This document shows, piece after piece, positions 10,432 to 32,332 of a stretch of DNA of 43,435 nucleotides. Within the stretch, counting starts at the first letter, position 1. Every line of letters begins with the position of its first letter. The notes under the pieces are model-generated. The model worked only from the letters and a program-made list of their open reading frames with translations, was not told the origin of the DNA and searched no databases. This DNA comes from Prevotella sp. GTDB lineage: Bacteria; Bacteroidota; Bacteroidia; Bacteroidales; Bacteroidaceae. The stretch spans positions 1 to 43,435 of the forward strand of contig JAFRRN010000029.1 of the NCBI GenBank assembly GCA_017428055.1, read 5' to 3'. The position numbers were made by a program, and so were the translations under genes.

Positions 10432-10468
10432 AAGCTTTTAATTAAAAAGGTTTGTTAATGTTTATTCT

Positions 10469-16638: not shown

Positions 16639-18012
16639 ATGTTGAACTGGAAAAGACCCTTATCATTTGTATTTGCAATGTTCCTTTATTGTGTAGCTAT
16701 CGCACAAGGCAATATCCACGAACAATCCAATGAATACCAATGGCCAAAAGACCCTCAAGTAATAAAAAAGTTAAAAGAATGGCAAGACTTAAAATTTGGC
16801 GTTCTCATCCATTGGGGGATTTATTCAGTACCAGGCATCGTGGAGTCATGGTCTATATGCGATGAAGAATGGATTACAAGGGACACGACCCTCTCCTACC
16901 AGCAATATATGGATTGGTATTTCTCGCTGGCAGACGAGTTTTGTCCCAAGCAGTTCGACCCTTCCCAATGGGCGAAGGTCTGTCAAGATGCAGGGATGCG
17001 ATATATGATTTTCACCACCAAGCACCATGATGGGTTCTGTATGTACGACTCCCAGGAGACCGACTTTTCCATTGCCCGTCATGCCTTACGAAACGACCCA
17101 CGGCGGGATGTGTTGCAACACGTGCTGAAAGCGTTTCGCGACAAGGGCTTTTCCATCGGTACGTATTTCTCGAAGCCCGACTGGCATTCACAACTTTATT
17201 GGTGGGATGTCTATGGAAAGAAAGGGCGCAACGTGAACTATCCCATCAGCCAATACCCCAAGAGATGGGAACAATTCCAACAATTCACCTACAACCAGAT
17301 AGAGGAAATCCTCTCACGTTACGGACAAGTGGACATACTATGGCTCGATGGCGGATGGGTATGTCCCGAAAACAAAATGCAAGACATCAACATGCCACGC
17401 ATCGCCGAAATGGCCCGACACCACCAACCAGGGATTCTGGTGGTTGACCGTACCATCCACGGGCCTTACGAAAATTACCAAACACCGGAGCGAACCATCC
17501 CCGATACACAATTGAATTATCCTTGGGAAAGCTGCATCCCATTAAGTAACGACTGGGGTTACGTGAATAAGCCACAATGGAAAAGTGCGCAAAAGGTCAT
17601 TAACACCCTCATTGAAATCGTTGCCAAGGGCGGGAACATGGTACTCGGTATCGGTCCAACGCCTGACGGAATCATTGAAAGCGAAGTGGGTTCGCGTCTG
17701 AAAGAAATCGGTAATTGGCTCAATCTCAATGGTAAAGCTATCTTTTCCACCGTGCCAACCACTCCTTTCCACGAAGGAAATATATGGTTTACACAATCAA
17801 AAGACAACAGCCGCCTATATGCCCTCTACCAACTAACGGAGGACGAACCATTTCCCACAAAGATTTCTTGGCAAAGCAACCGCCTCATTAAGTCCGCTAT
17901 TCTTCTCTCCACAGGGAAAAAGCTAAAAATGAAAAAGGATGGAAACCGTATCACGATAACCCTTCCGAAGGGCTTATCTCACCAACCTTTTGCCATAGAA
18001 CTCAAACTATAG
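16639..18012 (+). CDS. Alpha-L-fucosidase, glycoside hydrolase family 29
   Basis: A 457-residue secreted retaining fucosidase. Signal peptide about 1-22 (MLNWKRPLSF, then CVAIAQG). GH29 motifs: KFGVLIHWGIYSVP (52-65), TKHHDGFCMYDSQETDFS (127-144), YFSKPDWHS, and the nucleophile aspartate D237 in ILWLDGGW. E284 in the QTPERTIP block is in the place of the acid/base glutamate in related Bacteroides enzymes (alignment by eye). It would release terminal L-fucose from host or plant glycans in the periplasm or outside the cell. The C-terminal ~100 residues form the usual small beta-sandwich. The gene converges on the MATE gene with a 6-bp overlap. No SusC/SusD pair is next to it. Confidence 0.92.
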   Translation: MLNWKRPLSFVFAMFLYCVAIAQGNIHEQSNEYQWPKDPQVIKKLKEWQDLKFGVLIHWGIYSVPGIVESWSICDEEWITRDTTLSYQQYMDWYFSLADEFCPKQFDPSQWAKVCQDAGMRYMIFTTKHHDGFCMYDSQETDFSIARHALRNDPRRDVLQHVLKAFRDKGFSIGTYFSKPDWHSQLYWWDVYGKKGRNVNYPISQYPKRWEQFQQFTYNQIEEILSRYGQVDILWLDGGWVCPENKMQDINMPRIAEMARHHQPGILVVDRTIHGPYENYQTPERTIPDTQLNYPWESCIPLSNDWGYVNKPQWKSAQKVINTLIEIVAKGGNMVLGIGPTPDGIIESEVGSRLKEIGNWLNLNGKAIFSTVPTTPFHEGNIWFTQSKDNSRLYALYQLTEDEPFPTKISWQSNRLIKSAILLSTGKKLKMKKDGNRITITLPKGLSHQPFAIELKL

Positions 18013-19311
18013 GCTAACCATCTTTCTAATATAAAGATGCTGAAAAATACCCCTTAATGCCAAATAAGTAACCAAGGCGAGCCATAAAGCATGGTTGCCC
18101 ATCGTGGGAAATAAGAGAATATAAAGCAGGAAGAAAACCACGGAGGCAAGAGCGCAAGTTATTAACATGCCACGTGTAGCAGTAATGCCAATGAAAATGC
18201 CATCATAGACAAATGCTGCCATACCCATAGTAGGTATGACAAGGACCCAAGGGAAGTATACTTGTGCAGCCGTAATCACCTTTTGCTGATCTGTAAGCAG
18301 ATGCAGGAAAGAAAGACCTCCCACTGCGTATGCTAATGTAAAGACAATGACCATTACACATCCCCACCCAAATAAACGGCGGCAAATGGCATGGAACGCC
18401 CCCCTGTCGTTTGCCCCGAATGTCTTTCCACATAATGCCTCCCCCGCAAAGGCGAATCCATCCATGAAATAAGAGAACAAGGTGAAGAATGTCATCAGCA
18501 ATGTATTGACAGAGAGAACCATGTCGCCCTGCCTCGCCCCTGCCGAAGTGAAGAAAAGGAACACGGCAACCAAGAACAAGGTACGGAGGAAAATGTCACG
18601 GTTCACCTTAAGGAATGACATGAACGACATAAGGGAATAATCAAAAGAATGGACAGACTCGCTTTGCAAGAAGCCTCTTTTTCCCTTTAAGAGACACAAA
18701 GCCAACACCAAGCCACACCATTGCGCAATCAACGTGCCGTATGCCACTCCCTCTATCTTCATGCCAAACCCGAATACCAAGACGAAACTCGCCAAGATAT
18801 TGATAACATTCTGCGAGATAGATACCACCATGGGCGACCGCGTGTCTTGCATCCCGATAAACCATCCCGATATGCCATACAGACAGAGCATGGCAGGCGC
18901 GCCGTAGATACAGATGTTGAAATAGGAACACACATGGGGGATGATGTCAGCAGATGGGTGCATCACCGTGATGGCAATCCATCGAATAGGTATCTGAAAG
19001 ACAATAAAAACGAGTGCTATCGAGAAACCTATCATCAACGATTGCGCTAACAAGGAGCGAATGGCAAGAGCATCTCCCCTACCTAATGCCTGGGCGGTCA
19101 GCCCACTTGTCCCCATGCGCAAGAAGCCAAATACCCAATAGATGACATTGAAGATCATCGAGCCTATGGCTATAGCACCAATCAATGTCTCGTTACCGAT
19201 ATGTCCCACGATAGCCAAATCCACTAATCCCAAGAGTGGAACGGTAATATTGGAGACGATAGCGGGAATGGCAAGGTTTATTATCTGCCTATCATGGAGG
19301 CTAAATCTCAT
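18007..19311 (-). CDS. MATE-family efflux transporter (DinF-like)
   Basis: A 434-residue inner-membrane protein with about 12 membrane helices, the usual MATE length. The start reads INLAIPAIVSNITVPLLGLV and then DLAIVGHIGNETLIGAIAIG, the typical first-helix block of MATE exporters, followed by FGFLRMGTSGLTAQALGRGD. The family exports drugs and metabolites using a Na+ or H+ gradient. Its start overlaps the end of the ABC exporter gene by 11 bp, so it is the last gene of the long minus-strand operon that begins with the vWA lipoprotein at 31432. The substrate is unknown. Confidence 0.9.
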   Translation of the reverse strand: MRFSLHDRQIINLAIPAIVSNITVPLLGLVDLAIVGHIGNETLIGAIAIGSMIFNVIYWVFGFLRMGTSGLTAQALGRGDALAIRSLLAQSLMIGFSIALVFIVFQIPIRWIAITVMHPSADIIPHVCSYFNICIYGAPAMLCLYGISGWFIGMQDTRSPMVVSISQNVINILASFVLVFGFGMKIEGVAYGTLIAQWCGLVLALCLLKGKRGFLQSESVHSFDYSLMSFMSFLKVNRDIFLRTLFLVAVFLFFTSAGARQGDMVLSVNTLLMTFFTLFSYFMDGFAFAGEALCGKTFGANDRGAFHAICRRLFGWGCVMVIVFTLAYAVGGLSFLHLLTDQQKVITAAQVYFPWVLVIPTMGMAAFVYDGIFIGITATRGMLITCALASVVFFLLYILLFPTMGNHALWLALVTYLALRGIFQHLYIRKMVSL

Positions 19312-21136
19312 TGCCTGTATACAGTTTGTAATACTTGCCTTTTAAGGCGAGCAAGTCCTCATGTGTACCCTGTTCGATGATACGTCCCTTCTCCAACACA
19401 ATGATTTGGTCGGCATTGCGGACGGTGGAGAGGCGATGGGCGATGACAAAGGTGGTGCGACCTTGCATCAACGAGTCCATTCCCCGTTGCACAAGTTGCT
19501 CCGTGCGCGTGTCTATCGACGATGTAGCCTCGTCAAGAACCAGCACGGGAGGGTTGGCGACAGCGGCGCGGGCAATGGCCAGCAACTGCCGTTCACCTTG
19601 GCTGAGGTTGCCACCATCACCATTTAACACCGTATGGTAGCCACTCGCCAAGCGGCGGATGAAGTCATCGGCACCGACAAGTCGTGCGGCATTCTGGCAT
19701 TCCTCATCCGTGGCATCGAGACGACCATAGCGGATGTTGTCTAAAACCGTCCCCGTAAAGAGGTGTGTCTCTTGCAACACGATGCCCATAGACTTACGAA
19801 GCGACTCCTTGCGGATGTCAGTAATGGGGATGCCATCATAGAGAATGGTGCCTTTCTGTATGTCGTAGAATCGATTAATAAGGTTGATGATGGTGGTCTT
19901 CCCCGCTCCCGTGCCTCCGACGAAGGCAATCTTTTGTCCTGGATTGGTGTTGATGTCAATGTCAAACAGGATTTGTTTCCCCGGCACATAACTGAAGTCA
20001 ACATCCTTGAAGTCCACATCGCCCTTGGGATCAGTCAATGTCTGTGTACCTTCGTCAACCTCCGGCTCAGCATCTTGGAGGCGGAATACGCGCTCCGCTC
20101 CCACGGAGGCGTTCAATACACTATTGATTTGCTGGCTGACATGGGATATGGGTTGTGTGAAGTTCTTGTTCAATTGCAGGAAACTCACGATGGTTCCCAA
20201 TGAGAGAGAGAGGAAGGAAGAGGCATCGGCAGACAGGGCGAGCGTCGCTCCCACGACGGCAATCAACACATAGCCGAGGTTACCGAGGTTGCCGTTGACG
20301 GGCATTACGATGTTCGCTATCTTGTTCGCGTTGTACGAACTGGAGCGCAACTGCTCGCTGATGATCTCAAACTCGTCAATCGCCTGTTGTTCGTGACAGA
20401 ACACCTTGACCACCTTTTGTCCTGTCATCATCTCCTCGATAAAGCCGTTGACCTTGGCAAGGCTCTCCTGTTGGGTACGGAAATAGCCTCGCGACCATTT
20501 GCCCAAGCGTGTCGTCACAATCATCATGACGATGGCGATGAAGATGCTGACGAGCGTCAGGGGCACGCTCAAAACTATCATCGAGGTGAAGGTCACGACA
20601 ATGGTTATCAGCGAATTGAACACCTGCGCCATACTGGTTGAAATCACTTGCCGCAAGGAGTCCACATCGTTGGTATAGGTAGACATCAGTTCCCCATGTG
20701 AATGGGAGTCGAAATAGCTGATGGGCAACCGTTGCATGTTCTCAAAGATACTCTTACGGAGGCGGAGCATCGTGCCTTGGCTCACGTAAATCATCAGCCG
20801 GTTATAGGTATAGGAACAGACGACACCTGCCAACAGCACCAGTCCGAGTTTAAACAACGTCTGCAAGAGCGAGGTATATTCGGGATTATCCGCTTGGGTA
20901 AGGGGAACGATATAGTCGTCTATCAGTGTCTTGGTAAACAAAGACGATGCCAATGACGTGACTGACGACACGACGATACACGCCAAAACCGTGAGAACCG
21001 ACCATTTGTAGTATTTCAACACATACTGGAAGAGCCGTAGGAGCGTGGCTTTCTTGTTGGCATCTACACGCTGGAAACCCGGTTGTGAATGCTGTGGACC
21101 ACCTGGCTGCCGTCCGAAGGGGTTTTGCCTACTCAT
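19301..21136 (-). CDS. ABC exporter half-transporter with canonical ATPase site residues
   Basis: A 611-residue fused permease-ATPase. Six membrane helices lie within about residues 45-330; the ATP-binding domain follows: Walker A GGTGAGKT (407-414), Q-loop QETHLF, signature LSQGE (511-515), Walker B VLVLDE (531-536) with the catalytic glutamate E536, and the switch histidine in FVIAHRLST. It overlaps the next ABC gene upstream by 4 bp, so the two halves are made together and very likely form a heterodimeric exporter of the BmrCD/TM287-288 kind. The N-terminal 25 residues are polar and rich in Gly/Pro/Gln, an extension of unknown role. The substrate (lipid, drug or peptide) cannot be told. 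Confidence 0.92.
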   Translation of the reverse strand: MSRQNPFGRQPGGPQHSQPGFQRVDANKKATLLRLFQYVLKYYKWSVLTVLACIVVSSVTSLASSLFTKTLIDDYIVPLTQADNPEYTSLLQTLFKLGLVLLAGVVCSYTYNRLMIYVSQGTMLRLRKSIFENMQRLPISYFDSHSHGELMSTYTNDVDSLRQVISTSMAQVFNSLITIVVTFTSMIVLSVPLTLVSIFIAIVMMIVTTRLGKWSRGYFRTQQESLAKVNGFIEEMMTGQKVVKVFCHEQQAIDEFEIISEQLRSSSYNANKIANIVMPVNGNLGNLGYVLIAVVGATLALSADASSFLSLSLGTIVSFLQLNKNFTQPISHVSQQINSVLNASVGAERVFRLQDAEPEVDEGTQTLTDPKGDVDFKDVDFSYVPGKQILFDIDINTNPGQKIAFVGGTGAGKTTIINLINRFYDIQKGTILYDGIPITDIRKESLRKSMGIVLQETHLFTGTVLDNIRYGRLDATDEECQNAARLVGADDFIRRLASGYHTVLNGDGGNLSQGERQLLAIARAAVANPPVLVLDEATSSIDTRTEQLVQRGMDSLMQGRTTFVIAHRLSTVRNADQIIVLEKGRIIEQGTHEDLLALKGKYYKLYTGNEI

Positions 21137-22941
21137 GCCTTGCCTCCTTTCTTGTCAAAATCGCCCCTGTCTTCATTTTGAATCTTGGAGATTTCCTGAT
21201 ACAAGTCATTAGTCCGCAGGAGTTCATCATGAGTGCCAAAGCCCGTCACCATTCCATTATCCATCACAAGGATGCGGTCGCAATCCTTGACCGAGGAGAT
21301 GCGTTGGGCGATGATTATCTTGGTCATGCCAGACAATTGGTCGCGGAATGCGGCGCGTATCTTGGCATCGGTCTCCGTGTCACAAGCACTGGTGGAGTCG
21401 TCAAGCACCAAGATCTTGGGCTTTTTCAGCATGGCACGGGCAATACAAATACGTTGTTTCTGACCGCCGGAGACATTCGTTCCACCTTGTTCAATCTTCG
21501 TCTGATATTGTTCGGGCATCTCCATGATAAAATCATCTGCCTGGGCGATACGGCAAGCATCGCGACATTCCTCCAATGTCGCCTGTTCATTGCCCCACCT
21601 GAGATTGTCAAGGATGGTCCCCGAGAAGAGCGTGTTTTGCTGAAGCACGACAGAAACTGCATTCCTTAATGTCTCCAAGTCATACTCACGCACGTCATGA
21701 CCTCCCACAAGGACGGCCCCCTGTGACACGTCATACAAGCGGCTCACCAAGTTGACGAGGGTGGACTTACCCGAGCCGGTACCTCCAATCACGCCGATGG
21801 TCTCCCCGCTGGCAATCGTGAAACTGACATCATAGAGGGCAGACTTGCGTGATACTTTATTCTCGCCATTCTCCGAAGAGGGAGTTTTCTCTCCTGAAAT
21901 TTGCGTTCCCTTGTCCTGATAGTCGAAACGAACCCCTTGGAACACCACGCTGCCATCGGCGACATCCATCAAGGGATGCTCGGGATTGGCGATGTCGGGC
22001 TTTTCATTGATGATTTCCGTTACACGTTTGCCACTTGCGGCACTTTGCGTGAGCATCACGAAAACCATCGAGAGCATCATCAACGACATGAGGATAGACA
22101 TCACGTAGGTGAAGAGAGATGTCAATTCGCCCGTCGTCAACGTTCCACCCACAATGTAATGGGCGCCAAACCACGAGAGGGCGATGATACAACCATATAC
22201 CACCATGTTCATCACAGGATGGTTGAGAGCCATCAAACTCTCCGCGCGAACATATAACTTATATAGTGCCTCTGCGGCGGTGGCAAACTTCTCGTTCTCG
22301 TATTTCTCGCGGACAAAGGCTTTCACCACACGGATAGCTGACACATTCTCCTGTACGCTGAGGTTCAATTCATCGTATTTTTCAAATACCTGCTGGAACA
22401 ACTTGGCTACTCGCGAGATGATATGGTAAAGGGAGAAAGAAAGAACCACCATGGCAATGATAAAAATCAGAGACAGCCTTGCGTCGATAACCAAGCACAT
22501 CACAATGGATAGGACAAGGCGGAATGGCGCACGTACAGTCACTCGCAATATTTGCTGATAAGCGTTTTGGAGGTTGTTGACATCAGTAGTCATACGGGTT
22601 ACCAGTCCCGATGTCGAATACTTATCAATGTCTGAAAAGGCAAATGTCTGGATATTCCGATACATCGCAGAACGCAAGTTGGCAGCAAAGCCTGTGGAGG
22701 CGTAGGCAGACATTCGCCCGGCAAGGATGCCAAACAATAGGCTCAAGAAAGCCATTCCTATCATCACCAAGCCATAAAGATAGACATTGTGGATGTTTCC
22801 GGCGTTGATGCCCTCGTCTATCAGCTTGGCGGTGACGTATGGAATGAGTACGTCCATCACCACTTCCAATGCCGTAAACACTGGCGTGAGGATGGACGCA
22901 GTCTTGTATTGTCCAATTTGACTATAGAGAGTCTTAACCAT
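21133..22941 (-). CDS. ABC exporter half-transporter with degenerate catalytic site
   Basis: A 602-residue fused permease-ATPase, partner of the gene directly downstream (4-bp overlap). Membrane domain about residues 15-300; ATP-binding domain with Walker A GGTGSGKS (386-393), signature VSGGQ (490-494) and Walker B ILVLDD, where the catalytic glutamate is replaced by D515; the switch histidine is replaced by Gln in IIIAQRISS. Both changes are hallmarks of the degenerate half of heterodimeric ABC exporters. An extra polar loop (about 342-366, DKGTQISGEKTPSSENGENK) sits at the start of the ATPase domain. Only 6 bp separate its start from the stop of the zinc-ribbon membrane protein gene, which ties the exporter to that cluster. 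Confidence 0.92.
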   Translation of the reverse strand: MVKTLYSQIGQYKTASILTPVFTALEVVMDVLIPYVTAKLIDEGINAGNIHNVYLYGLVMIGMAFLSLLFGILAGRMSAYASTGFAANLRSAMYRNIQTFAFSDIDKYSTSGLVTRMTTDVNNLQNAYQQILRVTVRAPFRLVLSIVMCLVIDARLSLIFIIAMVVLSFSLYHIISRVAKLFQQVFEKYDELNLSVQENVSAIRVVKAFVREKYENEKFATAAEALYKLYVRAESLMALNHPVMNMVVYGCIIALSWFGAHYIVGGTLTTGELTSLFTYVMSILMSLMMLSMVFVMLTQSAASGKRVTEIINEKPDIANPEHPLMDVADGSVVFQGVRFDYQDKGTQISGEKTPSSENGENKVSRKSALYDVSFTIASGETIGVIGGTGSGKSTLVNLVSRLYDVSQGAVLVGGHDVREYDLETLRNAVSVVLQQNTLFSGTILDNLRWGNEQATLEECRDACRIAQADDFIMEMPEQYQTKIEQGGTNVSGGQKQRICIARAMLKKPKILVLDDSTSACDTETDAKIRAAFRDQLSGMTKIIIAQRISSVKDCDRILVMDNGMVTGFGTHDELLRTNDLYQEISKIQNEDRGDFDKKGGKA

Positions 22942-22947
22942 GCATCT

Positions 22948-23727
22948 TTAGAAATCACTCTTTTCCATCCACAAGCCTCCACCAGCTTCCAACCTTTGGT
23001 GTCCCAAGTCAAGCCGACGGGTGGCCTCTTCACCTTTTCCGAAATCACAATAAATAATGCCTTTGGAATAGTAAAACGTACCGCGTTCCGTCTTTCCATC
23101 GAATGTTTCTGAAATGCGGTTTCCCTTAATGAAAACATTGATAGACCCCTCAGAGGTTTCTACGCTCCAGTTTCCTTGCAACCAACTTGGAGGATTTTCA
23201 GGTCGTACCACCTCAAACTCATCCACGTCGTGCATCTCATGATGTATAGCTTCAGACAAATTATCTTCCACCACTTCCTTAGGCATCTCTTTGCCACCAA
23301 CACTATCGTTGTTATACGAACGATCAATATAACAACGCCTGATGACAAAAACGAAAATAATCAACGAGAGGATGAAGAGGACATAAAAACGTTGGAGACA
23401 CCCATTGCGACGGCTCGATGAATACTGGCGACTATATGGAGCATTAGGCATTGGTTCTTGAGAGTCATCAAATAGTTCCTCATCCTCATAACTTATCGGG
23501 GGACGATCCTTTGTGACACGTCTTTGCTGCTGACGGTTGTGATAGGCAGGAGGGGATGTAGAAGGGGTACTTGGTTGATTGGTTCTTTGCGAATCCTCTT
23601 GATACCCTTCTGGCACTTCGTAAGCAAAGGGTGTACCGCAACGCTCGCAAACACACGACAACTCCTTTGCGCCAGGGGTGACTGGCATCTCAAACTGCAG
23701 TCTACACTTAGGACATTTTACTAACAC
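22948..23727 (-). CDS. Zinc-ribbon, single-pass membrane protein of unknown function
   Basis: A 259-residue protein. The N-terminus is a small zinc ribbon with C5-x2-C8 and C27-x2-C30 (VKCPKCRLQF and CERCGTPFAYEVP), like the MJ0042-type zinc-finger domain. A low-complexity Pro/Ser/Gln-rich stretch (about 45-110) is followed by one membrane helix (about 113-130, FYVLFILSLIIFVFVIR). The C-terminal part (about 175-259) is a beta-rich domain, WLQGNWSVETSEGSINVFIK onward, similar in feel to the small 'how much signal is left' beta domains of lipoproteins; it would lie outside the cytoplasm. It is 28 bp after the coiled-coil gene and 6 bp before the ABC gene. Its role in the tubulin/actin-like cluster is unknown; a zinc ribbon inside and a beta domain outside suggest a membrane-spanning adaptor. 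Confidence 0.75.
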   Translation of the reverse strand: MLVKCPKCRLQFEMPVTPGAKELSCVCERCGTPFAYEVPEGYQEDSQRTNQPSTPSTSPPAYHNRQQQRRVTKDRPPISYEDEELFDDSQEPMPNAPYSRQYSSSRRNGCLQRFYVLFILSLIIFVFVIRRCYIDRSYNNDSVGGKEMPKEVVEDNLSEAIHHEMHDVDEFEVVRPENPPSWLQGNWSVETSEGSINVFIKGNRISETFDGKTERGTFYYSKGIIYCDFGKGEEATRRLDLGHQRLEAGGGLWMEKSDF

Positions 23728-23755: not shown

Positions 23756-24361
23756 TTATTCGAAATGGACGATGGCTTTGCGGACGACCTTCCACACGCC
23801 ACCTTCTTTAGAGGCAGTACCCTCCTCGTCCGTAACAATATGGTGAGGATATTGGGCTGTGCTACCATTCACCTTGCACACGGGTTTCAAGAATTGCGAG
23901 ATGCTAATCATCGCTGTGGCGATAGCATCATTGCTGTCAATGATGGAAAACGTACCATTCAAACCGTCCTGAGTCGTCAAGACATAGATACTCTTCCCAA
24001 TCTGTTCCCTTTGAGAGACACTGGGGAAGGAGCCATCTGCCGATGGGGCGGCGAGATAAAACTGTGACAGTTTGGGCATCGTAGGCTCTTGGATGGGAGT
24101 AGTAGGTTGACTCACAGGATTGATGTTGATGGCGGTCGGCGTGACAACAGGTTCTTCTTTCACCTCCTTGTCTTTCTCCGCAAGCATTTTCTCTAACGTC
24201 TCGATGCGTTTCTCCATCTCATCCACACGTCTCTGTAATGTCCTTACGCGATCCTTCAGGACGCTGAATGCGTGGCTGTCGTCGTGTCCGTTCACCTCTT
24301 GTGCTTCAGCATCCTCAACACTTTTGGAGAACATATTGGAAAATGAAAACTTATTTGCCAT
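23756..24361 (-). CDS. Coiled-coil protein of unknown function in the actin/tubulin-like cluster
   Basis: A 201-residue protein with no signal peptide. Residues about 33-72 form a strong heptad coiled coil (VRTLQRRVDEMEKRIETLEK), followed by a Pro/Thr-rich linker (73-97) and a C-terminal domain (about 98-201) with strands such as FYLAAPSADGSF and SIYVLTTQDGLNGTFSIID, ending VWKVVRKAIVHFE. I do not recognise the C-terminal domain. The start is 4 bp from the end of the actin-fold ATPase gene, so translation is likely coupled. A coiled coil next to two filament-fold NTPases suggests an adaptor or anchor, but that is inference. Confidence 0.75.
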   Translation of the reverse strand: MANKFSFSNMFSKSVEDAEAQEVNGHDDSHAFSVLKDRVRTLQRRVDEMEKRIETLEKMLAEKDKEVKEEPVVTPTAININPVSQPTTPIQEPTMPKLSQFYLAAPSADGSFPSVSQREQIGKSIYVLTTQDGLNGTFSIIDSNDAIATAMISISQFLKPVCKVNGSTAQYPHHIVTDEEGTASKEGGVWKVVRKAIVHFE

Positions 24362-24365
24362 AAAG

Positions 24366-27300
24366 CTACATCAGGTTTTCAATGAGATTGTCACGAATGC
24401 TACCGATGATGGGATAGAAGAACACGGTGTCCTCGATGGGATCGCTGCCATTCTTGTCATCGGCATTCTTGTTCACGAAGTTCCATCCATTAATAAGATG
24501 ATGGTCCAAATCCTTATTGACAAGTTCCTTGAAACGAGTCAAAGCCTTGTTATCGACAAGGAACCGTTCCACGACATGTATCTGGTCACAAAGTTGGCAG
24601 AAAAATTCATTGTACTTTTTCACCTCATTCACAATCTGCGCACGAACCTCGGCAGATACCATATCATCGTAGACCAGTTTCTCCTTGGCAATCATCGAGT
24701 AATTGAACTTCAACGGTGTCTCGAAGTCATCCAACATTTTGTTCAATTGCGAAACACTGTCGCAACCACTCGGCTCACGCACTTGCATCAAGGCGCCACG
24801 GCAAGTGATTTGCTTAGGCTCATTCTTTTCCATGACAACAGAGAAGCCGTCCGCACCGTATTTCTCCTCATAAACGCGCTCAAACACAGCTTGTGAGATG
24901 AGGTCAAGGTCGCGATTGGTACCCACTATGTCCAAGACCTTCGACCCCGTACCACTAAACATCACAGACCGTGGCTTGCCCAGCCCTCGTGACTTCATGA
25001 CATGGGCGACATAATAAATCAACGTGACATAGAAATAGATAAAGACGATCTTACGTGTCCCATCCTCGTTAAGACGCATATTATACGAGAATACATCGTT
25101 TCCTGCTACCGCCTTGTTGTTGATGACGGAGAACAAGAACGTGTTAATATCCTCACTCTTTCGCTTGCTGGTGATGTCGTCGAGAATGCCATTCAACTCG
25201 CCATACCGCTCATCATCGGCATCAAAGAGCCGTTTGAAGTAATCCACGTACTTCACCAACATGGGATTGGTATCGCCATGAGGCACTTCAGAGAAGCCAT
25301 CACCGAAGAGTACATTGGCAGCGAATCGGAAAGACGTAAGAACAGTTGGTTGCAGGGCATTGCTCTCGAAGATGACGACATCGCTCGTGCCACCACCAAT
25401 GTCGATGCTTGCCACATTCGATGCCGACCCACGGAACTTACTGGAACTCTTATAGAAATAATATGGTGCTATCGACTCTGGCATCTGGATGACATTATTG
25501 TCGGTGACGGGAACACCAAACACCTCGCGGAAAGTCTTCTCCCACATCTCTCCCAACTTGCGGATGTTGCCAACCTTCATGGAAAGGGGGTAGAACCAAA
25601 CGAGGCGTGTCTTGGTAATGTCTCCATTTTCCAACAAAACCTTCGTCCGCATCAATTGCGCCAACTCCGTTATATATGCCTTGACACGTTTCGATGTCGC
25701 CATCTCTGTAGACCACTTGAGGTTGGCGACAATACGATTTCCATAACCGCTACTCTCCTTCTCATAGATAAAGGGGATATTGGCATCGCCCAACGACACA
25801 ATGGTGTCCACATTCTCCGCATCCAACCGCTCACATTCGGAAAGAACGGTGCGTTGGGGGAAACCATAGCTTTCGCCAATCGTCTTGGGCAGAAACTCCT
25901 GTTTCATGAACACGTCATAAAGGTTCTGCTCCCCATTGTACAATGTGGCGAGCAACCGTTCACGTGCCACGGAGTCGACATGGATAGGTTCTGGCATATT
26001 GCCCGACTTCATACACTCAAGGTGAGAGTTAGTCGTACCGAAGTCTACGGCGAAAGTAAACGCCTCGTGACCAGGGATATAATTATTCCAACGAGGACAT
26101 ACCACTCCGTCTGCCACACGACTTCCACGGTCGTCAGTTAGGGTGATGTTGATGTAGTCAAACTCCGAGTTCAACTTATAGTAGCAAGACCCCACTCGCC
26201 TTTCTGACTTCAAGCTGCGTTCACGTGCCACGATGTCATCGTCTTTCACCTGGTTAAGGTAGCCATTCTTGAAGAAAGAGAGCGACAGGCTATAGTTCTG
26301 CAACAGCCCGAGGGCGCGATCTACCAATTGCACATTGTATTGGTTGCCCGTAATGGTACGAACAAATGGGAATACGCTAATGGCAAATGGCACGGTGATG
26401 AAATATCCACGGTTGTTGGCAGTATCATAGCGAAGGTCCGTATTCCGTGCCGCCACATAATTACGTTCCAACTTGATGAATTTCCCTTGTTTCTGCACAG
26501 GGATGCGCAAGATGACCTGCACGGTCTCTGTCGCCCCTACCTGGTTGTGAATCAACTCAAACTTGGGTCGTCCGCCAATTGTCCCCCAAAGGTCGGAAAC
26601 GTTGAAATACTTGAAGAACAATGGCTTCAGCGGCAACACAAAGTCACATTCGTCCGTGTCGGTAGAGCCAATGGAGAGGTTGCCGTCAAAGAAACAGTCA
26701 CGGTCGATGGTATAATCCAGTTTGATGAGCGTCGGTTGGAAGAAGTCATCATCCGTCAACCACGGATATTGATGTGTTGTGGCAGGCAGGACACGCTTAT
26801 CTGGCGACACGGCATAGTCTTCGGGCGTGATGACGGTAGCGTCGTTCCATGGACTCGATATATAAATGAAGGGGTCTGTCTGTGGAGCATTCAGGTGGTT
26901 CTGCAACACCAACGGCAGCCGTTCCTTCACCTCCTGCGATGGCACAATCATGAAATCACTTGCCGCGATAGCCGTCTCGATGTCCTGTGCCTTGACACAA
27001 TAGAATGGCACACCAAGTGCCTGAATGCCCTCGTCCATCTTGGAGAAGGTGGTGTCAAGGAATGTCTTGGCCTTCTCGATGCTCTCATAGTCAAAGGCAG
27101 TAGGATTTCCCACCTCCTTGATGATTTCGTCTTTAAGTTTGGGATGCAGCAGGGGAAGGTTGGTGATGAGGTAGTCATTCACCTCGCCGCAGCATTTCTT
27201 CAACTCGGGATAAGCGGTGAAGAGGGCATAGATGTATTTCACGAACTTGGGCGTACGCTTATACAACGGCCTCCATTGGTCAAAGAGGTTGACATTCTGC

Positions 27301-27839
27301 TCCACGGGGATGGGAAAGAGACCCTCCTTGGCATTCGGTGTAGCCATGAACAATGTGACGGGGGATGTCGATCCCACCACCCGATTACCATAGACGAGGA
27401 AATACAGGCGGTCCATCTTGTCGAAATTGAACGCTTCCTTATCTTGCTCAAGGAACATCTCTATCGTCTCGCCTAACAACTTATGCTGCGGCGAAGCCTT
27501 CAACATCTCCAATTGGGTGTCGCGGTTCCATTCCACGATACGCAATTGGTTGCGCAATTCTCCATAGTTGAAGAAGAGCTGTGCCACGTCGAAGGCATTG
27601 GCAACCAGTTTCTCGTCCATCGCCTCTCCCTGCAATGCGGTATTGGCAGAGAGACGCTTGAAGGCATTTTTCACCAAGTCCATCTGCGCAAAAGGTGACG
27701 GTATCGCCGTGCGTGGCTGTTGTGACAACCCGCCATTGGGGTCGTCTATCATGTCTATCTCGTCAGCATTATACTGTCCGGTGAGAGGAATCCACCCCTC
27801 GCCTGTCGTCTTATTGTTGTATGAAAGAATTTTGCTCAC
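24366..27839 (-). CDS. Large protein with C-terminal actin/Hsp70-fold (ASKHA) ATPase module
   Basis: A 1157-residue cytoplasmic protein. Residues about 595 to the end carry the three motifs of the actin/Hsp70/sugar-kinase fold in the right order: phosphate-1 FAVDFGTTNS (596-605), phosphate-2 SIDIGGGTSDVVIFES (811-826) and the adenosine motif VMFSGTGSKVLDIVG (959-973). It should therefore bind and probably hydrolyse ATP. The first ~590 residues are a separate region, mixed alpha/beta, that I do not recognise. The size and motif style recall SrfB-like Hsp70-related proteins of bacterial gene clusters, a tentative comparison. It lies 40 bp after the tubulin-like gene and 4 bp before the coiled-coil gene. 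Whether it polymerises like an actin or acts as a chaperone-like switch cannot be told. Confidence 0.85.
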   Translation of the reverse strand: MSKILSYNNKTTGEGWIPLTGQYNADEIDMIDDPNGGLSQQPRTAIPSPFAQMDLVKNAFKRLSANTALQGEAMDEKLVANAFDVAQLFFNYGELRNQLRIVEWNRDTQLEMLKASPQHKLLGETIEMFLEQDKEAFNFDKMDRLYFLVYGNRVVGSTSPVTLFMATPNAKEGLFPIPVEQNVNLFDQWRPLYKRTPKFVKYIYALFTAYPELKKCCGEVNDYLITNLPLLHPKLKDEIIKEVGNPTAFDYESIEKAKTFLDTTFSKMDEGIQALGVPFYCVKAQDIETAIAASDFMIVPSQEVKERLPLVLQNHLNAPQTDPFIYISSPWNDATVITPEDYAVSPDKRVLPATTHQYPWLTDDDFFQPTLIKLDYTIDRDCFFDGNLSIGSTDTDECDFVLPLKPLFFKYFNVSDLWGTIGGRPKFELIHNQVGATETVQVILRIPVQKQGKFIKLERNYVAARNTDLRYDTANNRGYFITVPFAISVFPFVRTITGNQYNVQLVDRALGLLQNYSLSLSFFKNGYLNQVKDDDIVARERSLKSERRVGSCYYKLNSEFDYINITLTDDRGSRVADGVVCPRWNNYIPGHEAFTFAVDFGTTNSHLECMKSGNMPEPIHVDSVARERLLATLYNGEQNLYDVFMKQEFLPKTIGESYGFPQRTVLSECERLDAENVDTIVSLGDANIPFIYEKESSGYGNRIVANLKWSTEMATSKRVKAYITELAQLMRTKVLLENGDITKTRLVWFYPLSMKVGNIRKLGEMWEKTFREVFGVPVTDNNVIQMPESIAPYYFYKSSSKFRGSASNVASIDIGGGTSDVVIFESNALQPTVLTSFRFAANVLFGDGFSEVPHGDTNPMLVKYVDYFKRLFDADDERYGELNGILDDITSKRKSEDINTFLFSVINNKAVAGNDVFSYNMRLNEDGTRKIVFIYFYVTLIYYVAHVMKSRGLGKPRSVMFSGTGSKVLDIVGTNRDLDLISQAVFERVYEEKYGADGFSVVMEKNEPKQITCRGALMQVREPSGCDSVSQLNKMLDDFETPLKFNYSMIAKEKLVYDDMVSAEVRAQIVNEVKKYNEFFCQLCDQIHVVERFLVDNKALTRFKELVNKDLDHHLINGWNFVNKNADDKNGSDPIEDTVFFYPIIGSIRDNLIENLM

Positions 27840-27879
27840 TTTCGTATATATTATATAATAATGTGTGGATGGTGTCTTC

Positions 27880-29424
27880 TCATACGATAGAGTTGAACTT
27901 CTCGTCTATCAGTTTGTCGAGTGTCTCATCGAGGAGGTCAAGAAGTTTCAACGAAACCTTGTCCGTGCCATACTTGGAAATCTTGGTTGCCTGTTGGGAA
28001 GCCTTATTCAAGGCGGACAACACCGACTTGTAATCGATGGGCGACTTGAAAATGCCGCTCCGTGGGGCGATGCCCGTAAGGCAATCGCTCAACTTAACCG
28101 TGTCAAGGTTAAATGGCACGAAGCTACGCTGGTTGCCGCGAAGCTCTTTGAGCCATTGCAGATAACCCACATAGAAATCGGCGGTCAACGTGTTGAAGAA
28201 CGACGTGGAGAGGAAACCATTGTTGATGACGGGCTTGTCCTGTGTGTACCCTCGTCCGATGTCTGCCTTCAGTTGGTTGGTGATATACATATACGCCAAA
28301 TGGAATTTCACCATCTGCCTGTTCACCAAGGCACGTGTCTGTACACCAAAGTCCATGAGGTTCAACGTGCGCTTGTCATAACTCAACCCAAATTCCTTAT
28401 AGATGGGGTTCTGCGCATTGCCGCCAACGGTTTGTAATTGGTCGTTAGGAATACCCATGAAGTCCAAGATTGACAAGGCGCCAACATATTCCACCAAGTG
28501 TGCATCATTGCGCTGTCCATTGCTACCTGGGTCGTTGAAATAGGGATTGCTCGGCACTTGGTCACCCAGATAATAACATGCGTTAATCTTCGACAGGGGC
28601 AAGTCCACGCCATTCTGATGCAATCCCGTGAGGTTGTCATGGTAATAGAACAATGCCGACTTGGTCTTTGAGATGAAATCACCACGGGAAATAGGACTAT
28701 TATCATCCTGCTGCACGTTGAAATATGGCAACACGGTCAACGCACCAATTCGCGCATCACGGAGGTCGCCACGGTTATTGATCTGGGTATTGTTGCCCGC
28801 ATTGCGAATGTTCTTCACGATGATGGGATAACCAGCCGCCCCGGTGCCACCGAAGATGGAACTCACCACGAAGATGCGGTCATTCTTCTGGAACACATTA
28901 GAGAACTGCTTAAACTCTTCCGAATCCTTAAACTGGTTCAAAGCCACGCTACCAATATTGGGGCTTCCCACGAAACCGATGTCCATCTTCGTCTGCAACT
29001 GGTAGTCGGAGAACATCATTGAGCAAAGGGCTTGGTTGCCCGTGTCGAGCGTGGAGAAATTGATAAAGTCCTGAAACTTCTTCGACTCAATGGCTCCCAT
29101 GTTGAAAAGGAACGTGTCGCTGAGGTTGGACCCATTGGGCAGGATGTCCGAAAGAGTCGAAATCTTCACCGAGAAAAAGCCCTTGGCAACATCCACCTGT
29201 TCACCATACAATCCCCTGCGTATCTGTTTATACCAGCGCATGAGGTTGTCGGTGCGTTTCAAGTCCTCGTTGGCTTTATGGGGATCCACCACGATGGGTA
29301 TGATTTCGAGCGGCATGGGTTGTCCCTGCTCATCCATGGGGTGTATACCGGCGGCACATTGCATGAGTAACGGGCGCATTACGCGCGACCCTGTGCCACC
29401 TACTAAGAATAAGAATAATCTCAC
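27880..29424 (-). CDS. Tubulin/FtsZ-superfamily protein (Tubulin_2-like)
   Basis: A 514-residue protein with no signal peptide. It opens with a nucleotide-binding loop, LFLVGGTGSRVMRPLL (GGTG at 9-12), and has a tubulin-signature-like glycine loop FGGTGAAGYP (191-200) after strand RIFVVSSI, as in the Tubulin_2 (Pfam) relatives of FtsZ. Both loops bind GTP phosphates in FtsZ and tubulin, so it should be a GTPase. It is longer than FtsZ and lacks an FtsZ-type C-terminal tail, so it is not the division protein. Comparative genomics has linked a related FtsZ-like family with vWA proteins in a predicted membrane-remodelling system (Makarova and Koonin 2010, from memory). Here a vWA lipoprotein gene is two genes upstream and an actin-fold ATPase gene directly downstream. 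Confidence 0.85.
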   Translation of the reverse strand: MRLFLFLVGGTGSRVMRPLLMQCAAGIHPMDEQGQPMPLEIIPIVVDPHKANEDLKRTDNLMRWYKQIRRGLYGEQVDVAKGFFSVKISTLSDILPNGSNLSDTFLFNMGAIESKKFQDFINFSTLDTGNQALCSMMFSDYQLQTKMDIGFVGSPNIGSVALNQFKDSEEFKQFSNVFQKNDRIFVVSSIFGGTGAAGYPIIVKNIRNAGNNTQINNRGDLRDARIGALTVLPYFNVQQDDNSPISRGDFISKTKSALFYYHDNLTGLHQNGVDLPLSKINACYYLGDQVPSNPYFNDPGSNGQRNDAHLVEYVGALSILDFMGIPNDQLQTVGGNAQNPIYKEFGLSYDKRTLNLMDFGVQTRALVNRQMVKFHLAYMYITNQLKADIGRGYTQDKPVINNGFLSTSFFNTLTADFYVGYLQWLKELRGNQRSFVPFNLDTVKLSDCLTGIAPRSGIFKSPIDYKSVLSALNKASQQATKISKYGTDKVSLKLLDLLDETLDKLIDEKFNSIV

Positions 29425-29465
29425 TTTTATGATACTTAATTGTTAATGCTAAATTGCCATTAGTT

Positions 29466-29912
29466 TCATTCGGGGATAGGTGTATGCCTACAATTCGATG
29501 ACCACCAGCGCATCGAGAACGACGCTACGATAAACAAGACAGCCTCCACGGCAGCATTCACCACACAAAAGCTGAACAATTGGGCCGTGAAGTCCAACCC
29601 GTCAGCAGAAAAAATATTATTGGGATAGATATAATTAACCACCGATGTCAGTACTACTGCCACGCCCAAGACCACCAACCAATGATACCAACGCGAGAAG
29701 CTAACTGAGTTGATGGCATAATAATAGATGCCAGCCAAGCCCCAAGCTATCAAGGCAGTTATCACAGCCACCACGAAATACAGGTTTTGGTTGTACATCT
29801 CATTGGAGAACTGACGCTCGTAATAGAGCATTTCAAATATCTTCGTAGAGAATACCAGGAATAACAAAGTAATCACCGCTCCAATAATAAGGAGGATAAA
29901 ATTCTTCTTCAT
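29466..29912 (-). CDS. Small four-helix membrane protein in the tubulin/actin-like cluster
   Basis: A 148-residue inner-membrane protein with four hydrophobic segments: about 4-23 (FILLIIGAVITLLFLVF), 44-66 (YFVVAVITALIAWGLAGIYY), 77-95 (WYHWLVVLGVAVVLTSVV) and 110-133 (FSFCVVNAAVEAVLFIVASF). There are no known catalytic motifs and I do not recognise the family. It starts 5 bp after the vWA gene stops and ends 41 bp before the tubulin-like gene, so it is part of the same operon. It could anchor the cytoplasmic tubulin-like or actin-like proteins to the inner membrane opposite the vWA lipoprotein (inference). Confidence 0.75.
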   Translation of the reverse strand: MKKNFILLIIGAVITLLFLVFSTKIFEMLYYERQFSNEMYNQNLYFVVAVITALIAWGLAGIYYYAINSVSFSRWYHWLVVLGVAVVLTSVVNYIYPNNIFSADGLDFTAQLFSFCVVNAAVEAVLFIVASFSMRWWSSNCRHTPIPE

Positions 29913-29917
29913 CTTAT

Positions 29918-31432
29918 CTATCTATTTTTAAAGTTCAAATCCAGTTCAAAATAATAAGGCGTACCTTTCGAGTTCTTCCGATAACTATTATAGATGCCTT
30001 GCATCAGGTACTTGAGACCGAAGGTGGTCTGTGCGAAATTCGCACCACCCACTTGCGTATCGTCATCGATAGAAGACTCCTCTATCCATGACGGCAAGCG
30101 GTTGAGCAATTTGATATTCACCGCTTGGTCATTCTTGATCTCGTCCATGCCAAGCACGAAGATATGGGTTGCCGTACCAAGGTATTTCTTCTCGGCGGGC
30201 GAGATGTCGTCCTTACCAATCTCGCGGATCTGAAGAATTTCCACCTTGTCGTCAGACTCAACCCGGTAATTGGCGGGGTCAGTAAGATATGCCTTGTCAA
30301 TCAGCATACCATCCAAGTCTACCGCCAAAGCCAGACGGATGTCACCCGAATTGCGGTCTACCTCTACATTCTCAATGTTCTTGATTTGGGTATCCTTGCC
30401 ATGTTCGGGCGTGAAACGACCGCGGATCTCAGGATTGCCCAACAACAGGGAATAATAGGGCTTATAGACATCATCTGTCTCAAAGAGATACATGTTCTCA
30501 TATCCCTTCAAATCCTTGAAGTTGCTGAACGCCAAATAATTCTTGTCTTTCGTCAAGCGGGCGATGTTTTCATTGCTACCCACCACAACGATATAATAGG
30601 GACGGCGACCCGTATACGACTGGCCACCTTTCGGCGAGTTATAAGTATAATATGGGCCTGAATAGCTCCCGTTCATCTTGACGATGAGCATCGACTTGTC
30701 TTTCACCTGTTCCTTGAAGACGGCATTCGCCATTCCTTGTGCCTCGGCGAACACTTTTTGCGGATTCACACCCACCATGTCCTTCGTCGAATAAATCATA
30801 TCAGTCACAAGGATGCTCAACTCATCCTTTCCCGTATTGTCAAGCAATTGCGAGAAGATGGCGGAAAAATCCGTAAAACTGGGGTCTCCAATACCCTTCG
30901 TTGCGTCGAAGATATTGGTATCGGCGATGAATTTACTGAATCCCTCGGGATATTCGTTGATGGAACTATTGACAACGTAAATCTTGTTATCGTCATTGTT
31001 GCCCGGCAAGTTGTTGAGCATCTGGACGATAGCCGCCTTAAAAGAGCCATCGCCATTGGGCGAGTCGTAGGGTGTCATAGACCCTGAGCGCTCAAGGAAA
31101 AAGTTGACATTGAGGTATTCCTTGCCTCCCACCCCGACAAACTGTATTTCCTTGGAAGGGCGACGGCGGTCGAAGAAGTCGGAGATGTATTCTTTCACCT
31201 CGTCCACATCTACCTGTCCCTTCTTATAGAAATCGCCAAAATGGGCTTTCTGCGAGTCCAAAAACTTCTCAATCTCTGCCCAGTCGTCGCGGTCAATGGT
31301 CTCATCCTTATCAGCCAAGTCCAAAAGCAAGCGATTCAAATCTTTCGTATGACTATCGCCACAACCCACAAAAACACATGTCAAGAATGCCGTAAAGGCG
31401 GTCAAAATAGTTGTTCTAACGACTTTATTCAT
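29918..31432 (-). CDS. von Willebrand A-domain lipoprotein, first gene of the cluster
   Basis: A 504-residue envelope lipoprotein. The N-terminal signal ends in FVGCGDS, with C24 as the likely lipidated cysteine. Residues about 105-300 form a vWA domain: the metal-site motif is ERSGS (114-118; normally DxSxS, so the first Asp is Glu), followed by T187 (PSFTDFSAIF) and D211 (LSILVTDMIYS). The C-terminal ~200 residues are a beta-rich extension with no recognised domain. The ATG at 31432 is preferred to an in-frame TTG two codons upstream. It would face the periplasm or the cell surface. A promoter lies 35 bp upstream and the next gene follows after 5 bp, so it leads the operon. Confidence 0.83.
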   Translation of the reverse strand: MNKVVRTTILTAFTAFLTCVFVGCGDSHTKDLNRLLLDLADKDETIDRDDWAEIEKFLDSQKAHFGDFYKKGQVDVDEVKEYISDFFDRRRPSKEIQFVGVGGKEYLNVNFFLERSGSMTPYDSPNGDGSFKAAIVQMLNNLPGNNDDNKIYVVNSSINEYPEGFSKFIADTNIFDATKGIGDPSFTDFSAIFSQLLDNTGKDELSILVTDMIYSTKDMVGVNPQKVFAEAQGMANAVFKEQVKDKSMLIVKMNGSYSGPYYTYNSPKGGQSYTGRRPYYIVVVGSNENIARLTKDKNYLAFSNFKDLKGYENMYLFETDDVYKPYYSLLLGNPEIRGRFTPEHGKDTQIKNIENVEVDRNSGDIRLALAVDLDGMLIDKAYLTDPANYRVESDDKVEILQIREIGKDDISPAEKKYLGTATHIFVLGMDEIKNDQAVNIKLLNRLPSWIEESSIDDDTQVGGANFAQTTFGLKYLMQGIYNSYRKNSKGTPYYFELDLNFKNR

Positions 31433-31466
31433 ATCCAATTCGACACGTTTTTACACAATATGGATG

Positions 31467-31624: not shown

Positions 31625-32332
31625 CTAACGCACAGGGCGCACCGAGAGACCGTTGTAGCGGTAGTTCCAACTGTCACAGAAGGCATGGGTCGAATGGAAG
31701 AGTAGTAAGCACGCGCTGCTCGGGATGCCGACATTGAGCGTAGACGACCAATAGAAGCCATACGAGCCGGCAGAGTTGAGGTCGCCATGCCAGCGGCATC
31801 CCGCAGCAGGAAGGAAGATGCTGTTGCCGTTAATGTTACTTGCGAATTTCCAGCCGTCCACACCATTAAGCGTCGTCCATTCACTCGTGCAATTGTCAAA
31901 CAATTCCTTAAATTCCTCTTGCGTGGGCATTCGCCAATCGCCGCCCCATTTCACGTGAGCAACATCGTATTCCGTGCCGCTGATGTCCTCTCCAAGGTCA
32001 TAGCAAGTATCGTCAGAGCCGTCGCAATGGATGTAGGTACTCCAATCGTAATAGTCTTTCTCTTCAATCTCTCCCCAAGCGTAATATCCACCGTATTCCT
32101 CGGGGTTGGTTGAGCCCACATTCATGTTTGCCCATTTCGTGCCGCTCGGCAAACCCAAATCTATAGTCTGAGGAGTGCTGGCATGTCCCTTGCCAAGGAC
32201 GTGGTCTATCACATAAGTCACATCGGCAATGTTTACCACTCCATCACCGTTGACATCGCAACGGTCTTCCTGCGCATTCACTCCCATGATTCCCGTCCAC
32301 AGGAACATGGCAAATATAAAAAATCTTTTCAT
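31625..32332 (-). CDS. Secreted protein with N-terminal dockerin repeat and FISUMP-like domain
   Basis: A 235-residue exported protein. Signal peptide about 1-20 (MKRFFIFAMFLWTGIMGVNA). A single dockerin-like calcium loop follows directly (CDVNGDGVVNIADVTYVID, about 25-43). Residues about 58-235 resemble the FISUMP/DUF1566 C-type-lectin-like domain: IDLGLPSGTKWANMNVG, YYAWGE, WRMPTQEEFKELFDNC, IFLPAAGCR, YGFYWSST and the closing YNGLSVRPVR. This domain is common in Bacteroidales surface proteins and probably binds protein or glycan. It is divergent from the transporter gene at 32463 and followed by a strong terminator. Confidence 0.83.
   Translation of the reverse strand: MKRFFIFAMFLWTGIMGVNAQEDRCDVNGDGVVNIADVTYVIDHVLGKGHASTPQTIDLGLPSGTKWANMNVGSTNPEEYGGYYAWGEIEEKDYYDWSTYIHCDGSDDTCYDLGEDISGTEYDVAHVKWGGDWRMPTQEEFKELFDNCTSEWTTLNGVDGWKFASNINGNSIFLPAAGCRWHGDLNSAGSYGFYWSSTLNVGIPSSACLLLFHSTHAFCDSWNYRYNGLSVRPVR

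Follow-up and report, generated by a model that had tools for sequence, protein, structure and literature searches.

What does a bacterial operon do that encodes a tubulin-fold protein and an actin-fold protein side by side? The question is raised by six genes in a 43,435-nucleotide stretch of Prevotella sp. DNA (GenBank assembly GCA_017428055.1, contig JAFRRN010000029.1; hereafter the window), which forms contig C15 in the draft genome assembly G000 (4.2 Mb, 93.6% complete; L, G, and C numbers denote loci, genomes, and contigs). By open reading frame (ORF) calls the genes are co-directional on the minus strand and are transcribed in the order vWA, TM4, Tub, Act, CC, ZnR, with gaps of 5, 41, 40, 4, and 28 bp between successive genes. 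To our knowledge, members of the cytoskeletal NTPase superfamilies (tubulin and actin) are rarely dedicated partners outside cell division. We found that the genes for the tubulin-fold protein (Tub) and the actin-fold protein (Act) are linked in genomes across Bacteroidota, form a single fused gene in one family, and are accompanied by MotAB-type genes in some lineages, which makes the idea that the two proteins act as one unit testable. The most informative facts, that Tub and Act can be fused and that motor genes can be linked to them, come from outside the window.

Tub (27880-29424, minus strand; 514 aa) was identified by its motifs, profile matches, and predicted structure. In a 13-row alignment that reaches down to 21% identity, all four residues of a T1-like GGTG loop (G9, G10, T11, and G12; 29389-29400) are invariant, as are F191, G192, G193, T194, and G195 of a T4-like signature loop, FGGTGAAG (residues 191-198; 28831-28854). 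The families matched in Pfam and NCBIfam are Tubulin_2, Tubulin, and FtsZ, and all matches are weak and under cut-off (in Pfam, E = 1.5e-3 for Tubulin_2 and 4.7e-3 for Tubulin); against PF13809 (Tubulin_2), Tub scores 18.3 bits, below the curated cut-off of 27. A predicted model (mean predicted local distance difference test score [pLDDT] 66, predicted template modeling score [pTM] 0.78) was compared with the PDB, and 46 of the 50 matches listed are tubulin, microtubule, or oocyte-lattice entries (two of the last kind), the other 4 being Rossmann-type enzymes. These matches are individually weak (best E 0.01, none below 0.001, template modeling scores mostly 0.2-0.3). In BFVD just one match falls below 0.001, the top one, to a phage tubulin (E = 1.7e-4). 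A Tub profile found no PDB sequence at E ≤ 0.01; at E ≤ 10, FtsZ/tubulin GTPases make up 34 of the 35 sequences found (best E 0.017). Each Tub match is weak, and the structure matches in both databases and the profile matches agree on the tubulin-like fold that had been proposed when these genes were first read from the sequence alone (the sequence-only reading). The signature loop and the fold together place Tub in the FtsZ/tubulin superfamily.

Act (24366-27839, minus strand; 1157 aa) is a large protein with the actin/Hsp70 (ASKHA) ATPase fold, as judged from motifs, predicted structure, and profile. A 13-row alignment that reaches down to 17% identity contains a phosphate-1 motif, DFGTTN (residues 599-604; 26028-26045), with D599, G601, and N604 invariant; a phosphate-2 motif, DIGGGTSD (residues 813-820; 25380-25403), with D813, G815, G816, and D820 invariant; and an adenosine-type motif, SGTGSK (residues 962-967; 24939-24956), with G963 invariant and G965 nearly so. 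The predicted model is weak (pLDDT 55, pTM 0.43). Among the 50 PDB matches listed for it, 48 of which have E ≤ 0.001, the titles name Hsp70s, ParM, MreB, GppA, and a sugar kinase, all of which we take to belong to the actin/Hsp70 superfamily. The Act profile matched a single PDB sequence, an MreB chain (E = 1.3e-4), and the Pfam matches (FtsA 0.08, EutA 0.14, SrfB 0.15) are all under cut-off. The structure matches agree with the fold named in the sequence-only reading, and we conclude from the three motifs and the fold that Act is a member of the ASKHA superfamily, with low model confidence in the middle of the protein. SrfB (PF07520) was considered as a closer assignment and rejected, at 10.5 bits over 19 residues versus a cut-off of 27.1; a SrfB survey of 148 genomes was silent in the control genomes too and was thus uninformative.

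A search of the genome_contigs collection by Tub returned 61 stretches, 23 of them with an encoded relative, which represent 19 distinct loci; among named records, the nearest are mostly of Prevotella type, plus two of Hoylesella. The order vWA-TM4-Tub-Act-CC is intact in all 19 of these close loci, and ZnR is present in 18, the exception being L033, where the record stops 1.7 kb past CC. Because loci found by Tub contain Tub by construction, we counted linkage from loci found by the Act profile in a phylum sample of 296 genomes and an order sample of 247 genomes, the window's own genome being excluded. At E ≤ 0.001 this profile matches in at least 156 genomes of the phylum sample and in 79 of the order sample. 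Where a short match fell in a frame of about 260-640 aa, we did not count it as family; the one checked is FtsA, and another reads as Ppx/GppA. The searches gave 23 family-type loci in Bacteroidota (7 from the phylum sample, one of them truncated where its contig ends, and 16 from the order sample), and Tub is the next gene upstream of Act in 21 of the 23. When L020, L022, and L023 are dropped (rows of the Act profile that were first found by Tub), the count is 18 of 20. One of the two exceptions, L120, is a contig that ends about 1 kb upstream of Act; the other, L121, is weighed below. The Tub profile matches 10 of the 296 phylum-sample genomes (own genome included), and Act adjoins Tub in eight of these and is in the same polypeptide in two. 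The idea that the six genes form a set thus holds outside the window, with the order retained in many genomes and Tub beside Act in nearly every locus found by Act.

The two genomes with a single polypeptide, G329 and G274, encode fusion proteins 1681 and 1615 aa long, respectively. In each, the N terminus is of tubulin type (E = 2.4e-13 and 2.7e-11), and residues 1016-1353 include a region of ASKHA type (E = 1.2e-9 and 1.9e-8) that carries DFGTS and DLGGGT motifs. A search of 114 genomes of the order that bears these fusions gave matches in eight. Seven of the eight, from three genera of one family, combine the two parts in a single frame (1622-1696 aa), with matched pieces 34-76% identical to the query, and the profiles detect both domains in all seven (the weakest is the Act region of G579, E = 6.5e-5). 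In the eighth genome, G580, from a fourth genus, the parts are split between frames of 426 and 1181 aa. At both fusion loci whose context was read, the fusion gene is followed by one for a protein of 494-626 aa whose N-terminal part is of lipoprotein or membrane type, and a ZorA-like gene also lies 3' of the fusion (E = 1.9e-11 and 9e-10); one of the two, L157, additionally encodes a short MotB-like protein (E = 0.002). That the two occur fused in nature argues strongly, if circumstantially, that Tub and Act work together.

Clustering of the proteins encoded next to the core genes in relatives revealed, in eight loci, a membrane protein of 494-581 aa together with a one-helix protein of 205-264 aa. 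Pfam and PADLOC match these to MotA-ExbB/ZorA and MotB-OmpA/ZorB, respectively (best matches ZorA2, 1.7e-11, and ZorB1, 2.7e-12); the remaining motor-type members match far more weakly. The alignment of the B-type proteins contains a FFWxSYxDLMTxLF-like helix whose Asp is invariant in the 8 ZorB-like rows. By profile, a ZorA-like and a ZorB-like gene lie as a pair 3' of the core in 9 of the 31 loci that do not belong to the window-type group (L017, L109, L110, L113, L116, L118, L122, L126, and L127, of which L126 and L127 are near copies), and the ZorB-like profile (A6) has a match in 10 of 30 genomes in which the system is present. Loci with the ZorAB-like subfamily but with neither Tub nor Act also exist: six of them were fetched and four of these partly scanned, and two have defense-type neighbors. 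At L153 (G407:C10) the pair stands between a gene for a type III restriction enzyme and genes for TmtA and a DrmD-like helicase, possibly another motor-based defense arrangement, and at L151 the neighbors are a DarT-like protein and a type IIG restriction protein. A separate observation concerns L152 (G406:C246), where a ZorB-like gene (9882-10511) has no ZorA-like partner by profile and adjoins an ORF of 1912 aa whose product has about 14 membrane helices.

Three kinds of hydrolase are also encoded near the core in relatives. Retropepsin-like proteins occur at L016, L017, L108, L114, and L122 (PF13975, 3.8e-14 for L122), NS nucleases at L017, L122, L126, and L127 (PF01223 for L017 and L126), and trypsin-like proteins at L020, L021, L023, L113, L116, L117, and L119 (PF13365 for L116). 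Members without a named Pfam match were assigned by purpose-built profiles, from which one unrelated row, in the trypsin profile, was removed. All five retropepsin-like proteins and some of the other hydrolases carry lipoprotein-type signals, as judged by eye.

The four remaining genes of the window set encode a lipoprotein, two predicted membrane proteins, and a coiled-coil protein. The first (29918-31438, minus strand; 506 aa) encodes a vWA-type (von Willebrand factor A) lipoprotein, recognized from its ORF, the lipobox FVGC, and a conserved motif. The ORF starts at a TTG, and the likely start is an in-frame ATG two codons downstream, at 31432. Its metal ion-dependent adhesion site (MIDAS)-like motif, ERSGSM (E116-M121; 31076-31093), was read in an 18-row alignment in which S118, S120, and D213 are invariant and E116 and M121 nearly so; a Pfam scan of the protein matched no vWA family, and the probable vWA identity is based on the E-x-S-x-S motif and the later conserved Asp, without profile support. 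TM4 (29466-29912, minus strand; 148 aa) has four predicted membrane helices by a simple hydropathy count, and its family is retained between vWA and Tub across related loci. In L029, L042, and L040, about 1 to 2.5 kb separates vWA from TM4, versus the tight spacing in the window, and in L031 (9396-9853), a Hoylesella record, the TM4 frame is broken into pieces of 69 and 110 aa. The coiled-coil protein CC (23756-24361, minus strand; 201 aa), called from its ORF, has a conserved C-terminal part, and its family lies 3' of Act in most related loci, though not all. ZnR (22948-23727, minus strand; 259 aa) consists of an N-terminal zinc ribbon, one predicted membrane helix, and a C-terminal domain; the CxxC pairs are visible in the sequence, and the Pfam match to Zn_ribbon_4 (0.093) is under cut-off. 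The six-gene set of the sequence-only reading was confirmed by the ORFs, but the interval it gave, 23756-31432, stops short of ZnR, the sixth gene that it named.

Tub is present in 51 of 200 genomes of the same genus and in 34 of the 86 of good quality (a count of Tub only, irrespective of adjacency to Act); as about a quarter of the sampled genus genomes have Tub, the set is not rare. We built maximum-likelihood trees from 33 Tub rows and 32 Act rows, both of which exclude the 19 close loci, L120, L121, L127, L132, and L133, and the second of which also excludes L107 (truncated). The alignments used for folding each omit 4 of the 19 close loci, and the Act alignment omits L133 too. Same-genus rows form four separate groups on both trees, corresponding to 4 label changes, at least 3 of which are forced by well-supported branches; the forced changes may include losses, and long branches leave single placements unsure. 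On the Tub tree the window clade joins two rows from elsewhere in the class. From these sequences the set looks patchy and horizontally moved. In contigs of a virus collection, which may include host flanks, one copy (L125) adjoins phage tail genes and another (L128) lies behind an integrase. A search of 72,556 plasmid records with the window Act gave one match; the record, NC_022111.1, is entered as a 1.77 Mb plasmid of Prevotella sp. oral taxon 299 and encodes a protein 61.5% identical to Act. Two genomes each carry two different Tub-Act copies (G521 on C112 and C116, G045 on C184 and C251).

How does this set relate to known systems? An actin-fold and a tubulin-fold protein work as a pair at the membrane in division, namely FtsA and FtsZ, and the Act profile weakly reaches FtsA over a short stretch around the phosphate-2 motif. 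The present set differs from that pair in being accessory and patchy, in the size of Act (1157 aa), and in its lipoprotein and, sometimes, motor partners. A second comparison is with FtsZl1, which Makarova and Koonin (2010; PMC2875224) described together with vWA, GTPase, kinase, and OmpA-type genes and for which they proposed a role in remodeling; the sequence-only reading had cited this prediction, and the article contains it as cited. Like FtsZl1, Tub is a divergent tubulin-fold protein encoded beside vWA and membrane proteins, with OmpA-type proteins in some relatives. The vWA gene (identified by motif and conservation) lies in the operon of the tubulin-like gene, PF13809 weakly finds two members of the present family (G075 and G150), and the FtsZl1 alignment in PMC2875224 includes Bacteroides caccae. 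The supposed absence of OmpA from the present gene set is true of the window but not of all relatives, some of which have OmpA-type or MotB/ZorB-type proteins near the set. In contrast to FtsZl1, Tub has no extended coiled coil, and its linked partner is instead an actin/Hsp70-fold protein. No P-loop GTPase or protein kinase family was detected by Pfam or NCBIfam among the six window proteins; GTPase and kinase partners of FtsZl1 are described as frequent, not obligatory, in that paper, and a term search of the main text for Hsp70, ASKHA, MreB, and MotA found none of them (PMC2875224). A classical FtsZl1 from the same phylum (L105; 1208 aa, with a GYF domain) was rejected as a relative, eight profiles, including those for Tub, Act, and the motor, being silent at E ≤ 1e-3 in the 20 kb around it. 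An hhalign comparison of profile A1 with the single L105 sequence was weak (probability 2%, E = 0.024), yet aligned the two at the GGTG loop.

Kaur et al. (2020; PMC7159879) described membrane-near conflict systems with GTPase and GAP1 components and with tubulin-fold, Hsp70-fold, and vWA parts, and separate systems of NS nuclease and trypsin; in that text the tubulin and Hsp70 themes do not overlap, and MotA is absent. The present set has tubulin-fold, Hsp70-fold, and vWA components in common with these GAP1-N2 systems, but it pairs the two folds, which in one family are fused, whereas GAP1-N2 is defined by GTPase and GAP1; among the six proteins there is no P-loop GTPase family, and no GAP1 model was searched. 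With Zorya it shares, in some relatives, the ZorA-like/ZorB-like pair, by distant matches, but the window and most of the relatives examined are without motor genes. Zor models gave no match to the six window proteins (canonical Zorya models were not run genome-wide), and PADLOC found no ZorC, ZorD, or ZorE among these six or the ten relatives' proteins scanned. The set has parts in common with FtsZl1/vWA, GAP1-N2, and Zorya systems and qualified as a full member of none in these comparisons. It offers a bridge from two predicted groups, the FtsZl1/vWA remodeling systems and the GTPase/tubulin/Hsp70 conflict systems, to motors of Zorya type. We found no published description of a tubulin-/actin-fold pairing in a search of titles and the starts of abstracts, which left most subscription papers and bioRxiv preprints outside.

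The reading that we prefer, with confidence that stands about evenly balanced, is that the set encodes an envelope-spanning, NTP-driven Tub-Act machine, most likely a mobile immune or conflict system. It builds on the genes, their folds, order, and linkage, the fusions, the motor-type and hydrolase neighbors, and the patchy distribution. Tub and Act would be a dedicated pair of NTPases in a physical complex, one cytoplasmic unit at the core of the machine, which TM4 would tie to the inner membrane; the vWA-type lipoprotein would sit on the outer side of that membrane, above TM4. In some relatives the core would be coupled to a MotA/MotB-type (ZorA/ZorB-like) motor, presumably proton-driven, whose B subunit has an OmpA-type domain, and in some also to lipoprotein or secreted hydrolases; in the window lineage, CC and ZnR take the motor's place and would have to take over the coupling. 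A disturbance of the envelope (e.g., phage attachment or DNA entry) might be sensed via vWA or the motor part and passed to Tub and Act; these would then assemble or change conformation in an NTP-dependent way, with hydrolysis and perhaps polymerization, and so turn on the effector part. A bolder version, which we put forward only tentatively and consider doubtful as it stands, is that this is a new class of machine, a two-cytoskeleton immune machine in which an obligate tubulin-/actin-fold NTPase pair, a single polypeptide in one family, links NTP hydrolysis in the cytoplasm to a peptidoglycan-anchored, ion-driven motor and to extracytoplasmic effectors.

Several observations weigh against a motor-coupled defense machine. 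The motor pair was not found by our profiles in 22 of the 31 distant loci (several of them cut by contig ends), and the top score of the A-type protein of L113 is to LeoBC (6.2e-8), not ZorA. The ZorB-like profile has no match in the 93.6% complete window genome or in the window-type genomes G002, G012, G028, and G029, and the window version therefore appears to be motorless. L121 has Act, but the 2 kb between it and the start of the contig encode no Tub, and the Act model is poor and unreliable at about residues 459-719. Three of the seven trypsin-like neighbors, at 462-463 aa, resemble ordinary HtrA/DegP. The window Act matched none of 50,697 phage records, PADLOC gave nothing for the six window proteins beyond a TniQ match at 0.029, and among ten flank proteins from nine Tub-Act loci it gave matches in four loci (the best to mad8, 1.4e-13, at L110; the others 1e-4 to 1e-7). 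The neighbors of the cluster in the window are ordinary metabolic and transport genes, for SBF, ABC, and MATE transporters and glycosidases. We regard defense as a lean and not a result.

The main rival, which we consider unlikely, is a membrane-remodeling or vesicle machine, in which membrane filaments of Tub and Act would bend or partition the envelope and the vWA and OmpA-type proteins would be outer anchors. Both folds are known to form filaments, the tubulin-fold protein is accompanied by a vWA-type lipoprotein and in some relatives by OmpA-type proteins, and FtsZl1 offers a precedent in the proposal of Makarova and Koonin (PMC2875224). Remodeling as a housekeeping function fits less well with the patchy distribution, the signs of horizontal movement, the phage-tail and integrase neighbors of two copies, and the linked hydrolases. 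Those same hydrolases could instead process cargo in an export, import, or scavenging apparatus of the envelope, in which the motor and the NTPases would move protein or DNA and lipoprotein nucleases and proteases would act on it; the match of the A subunit to MotA/ExbB/TolQ-type families, the NS-nuclease and protease neighbors, and the window ABC transporter genes, which start 6 bp after ZnR, speak for this. We nevertheless find it quite improbable, as the conserved set, as annotated, has no outer-membrane channel, and ABC genes also lie 3' of the set in just L025, L026, L029, and L041, with a piece in L032, among 23 other close loci compared.

It is more doubtful still that Act is an Hsp70-like chaperone with Tub as its client or switch, a signaling pair without polymers. 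Hsp70 chains account for most of the 50 structure matches listed for Act, and conflict systems that include Hsp70 or tubulin components were described by Kaur et al. (2020; PMC7159879); however, ParM is first and MreB second among these listed matches, MreB is the sole PDB profile match, none of the six window proteins matches a DnaJ or GrpE family in Pfam, and fusion to Tub would be atypical of a general chaperone. A leftover plasmid or phage segregation cassette (TubZ/ParM-like) in the chromosome is highly improbable, since the structural matches to ParM and phage tubulin and the phage-tail and integrase neighbors of two copies are set against the membrane and lipoprotein partners and the scarcity of Act in plasmid and phage records (one of 72,556, on the 1.77 Mb replicon, and 0 of 50,697); no search was aimed at an adaptor or centromere.

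Three further observations concern genes next to the set. At L128 (9374-12016), the gene 3' of Act encodes an 880-aa tetratricopeptide repeat (TPR) protein that shows a caspase-like match, though a very weak one (0.025). In the window, the genes 3' of ZnR (18007-22941) encode two ABC transporters and a MATE protein and are 6 bp apart or overlap. Just upstream of the cluster (31625-32332) a small protein is encoded that has a dockerin-type match and a match to Lcl_C, the latter under cut-off.

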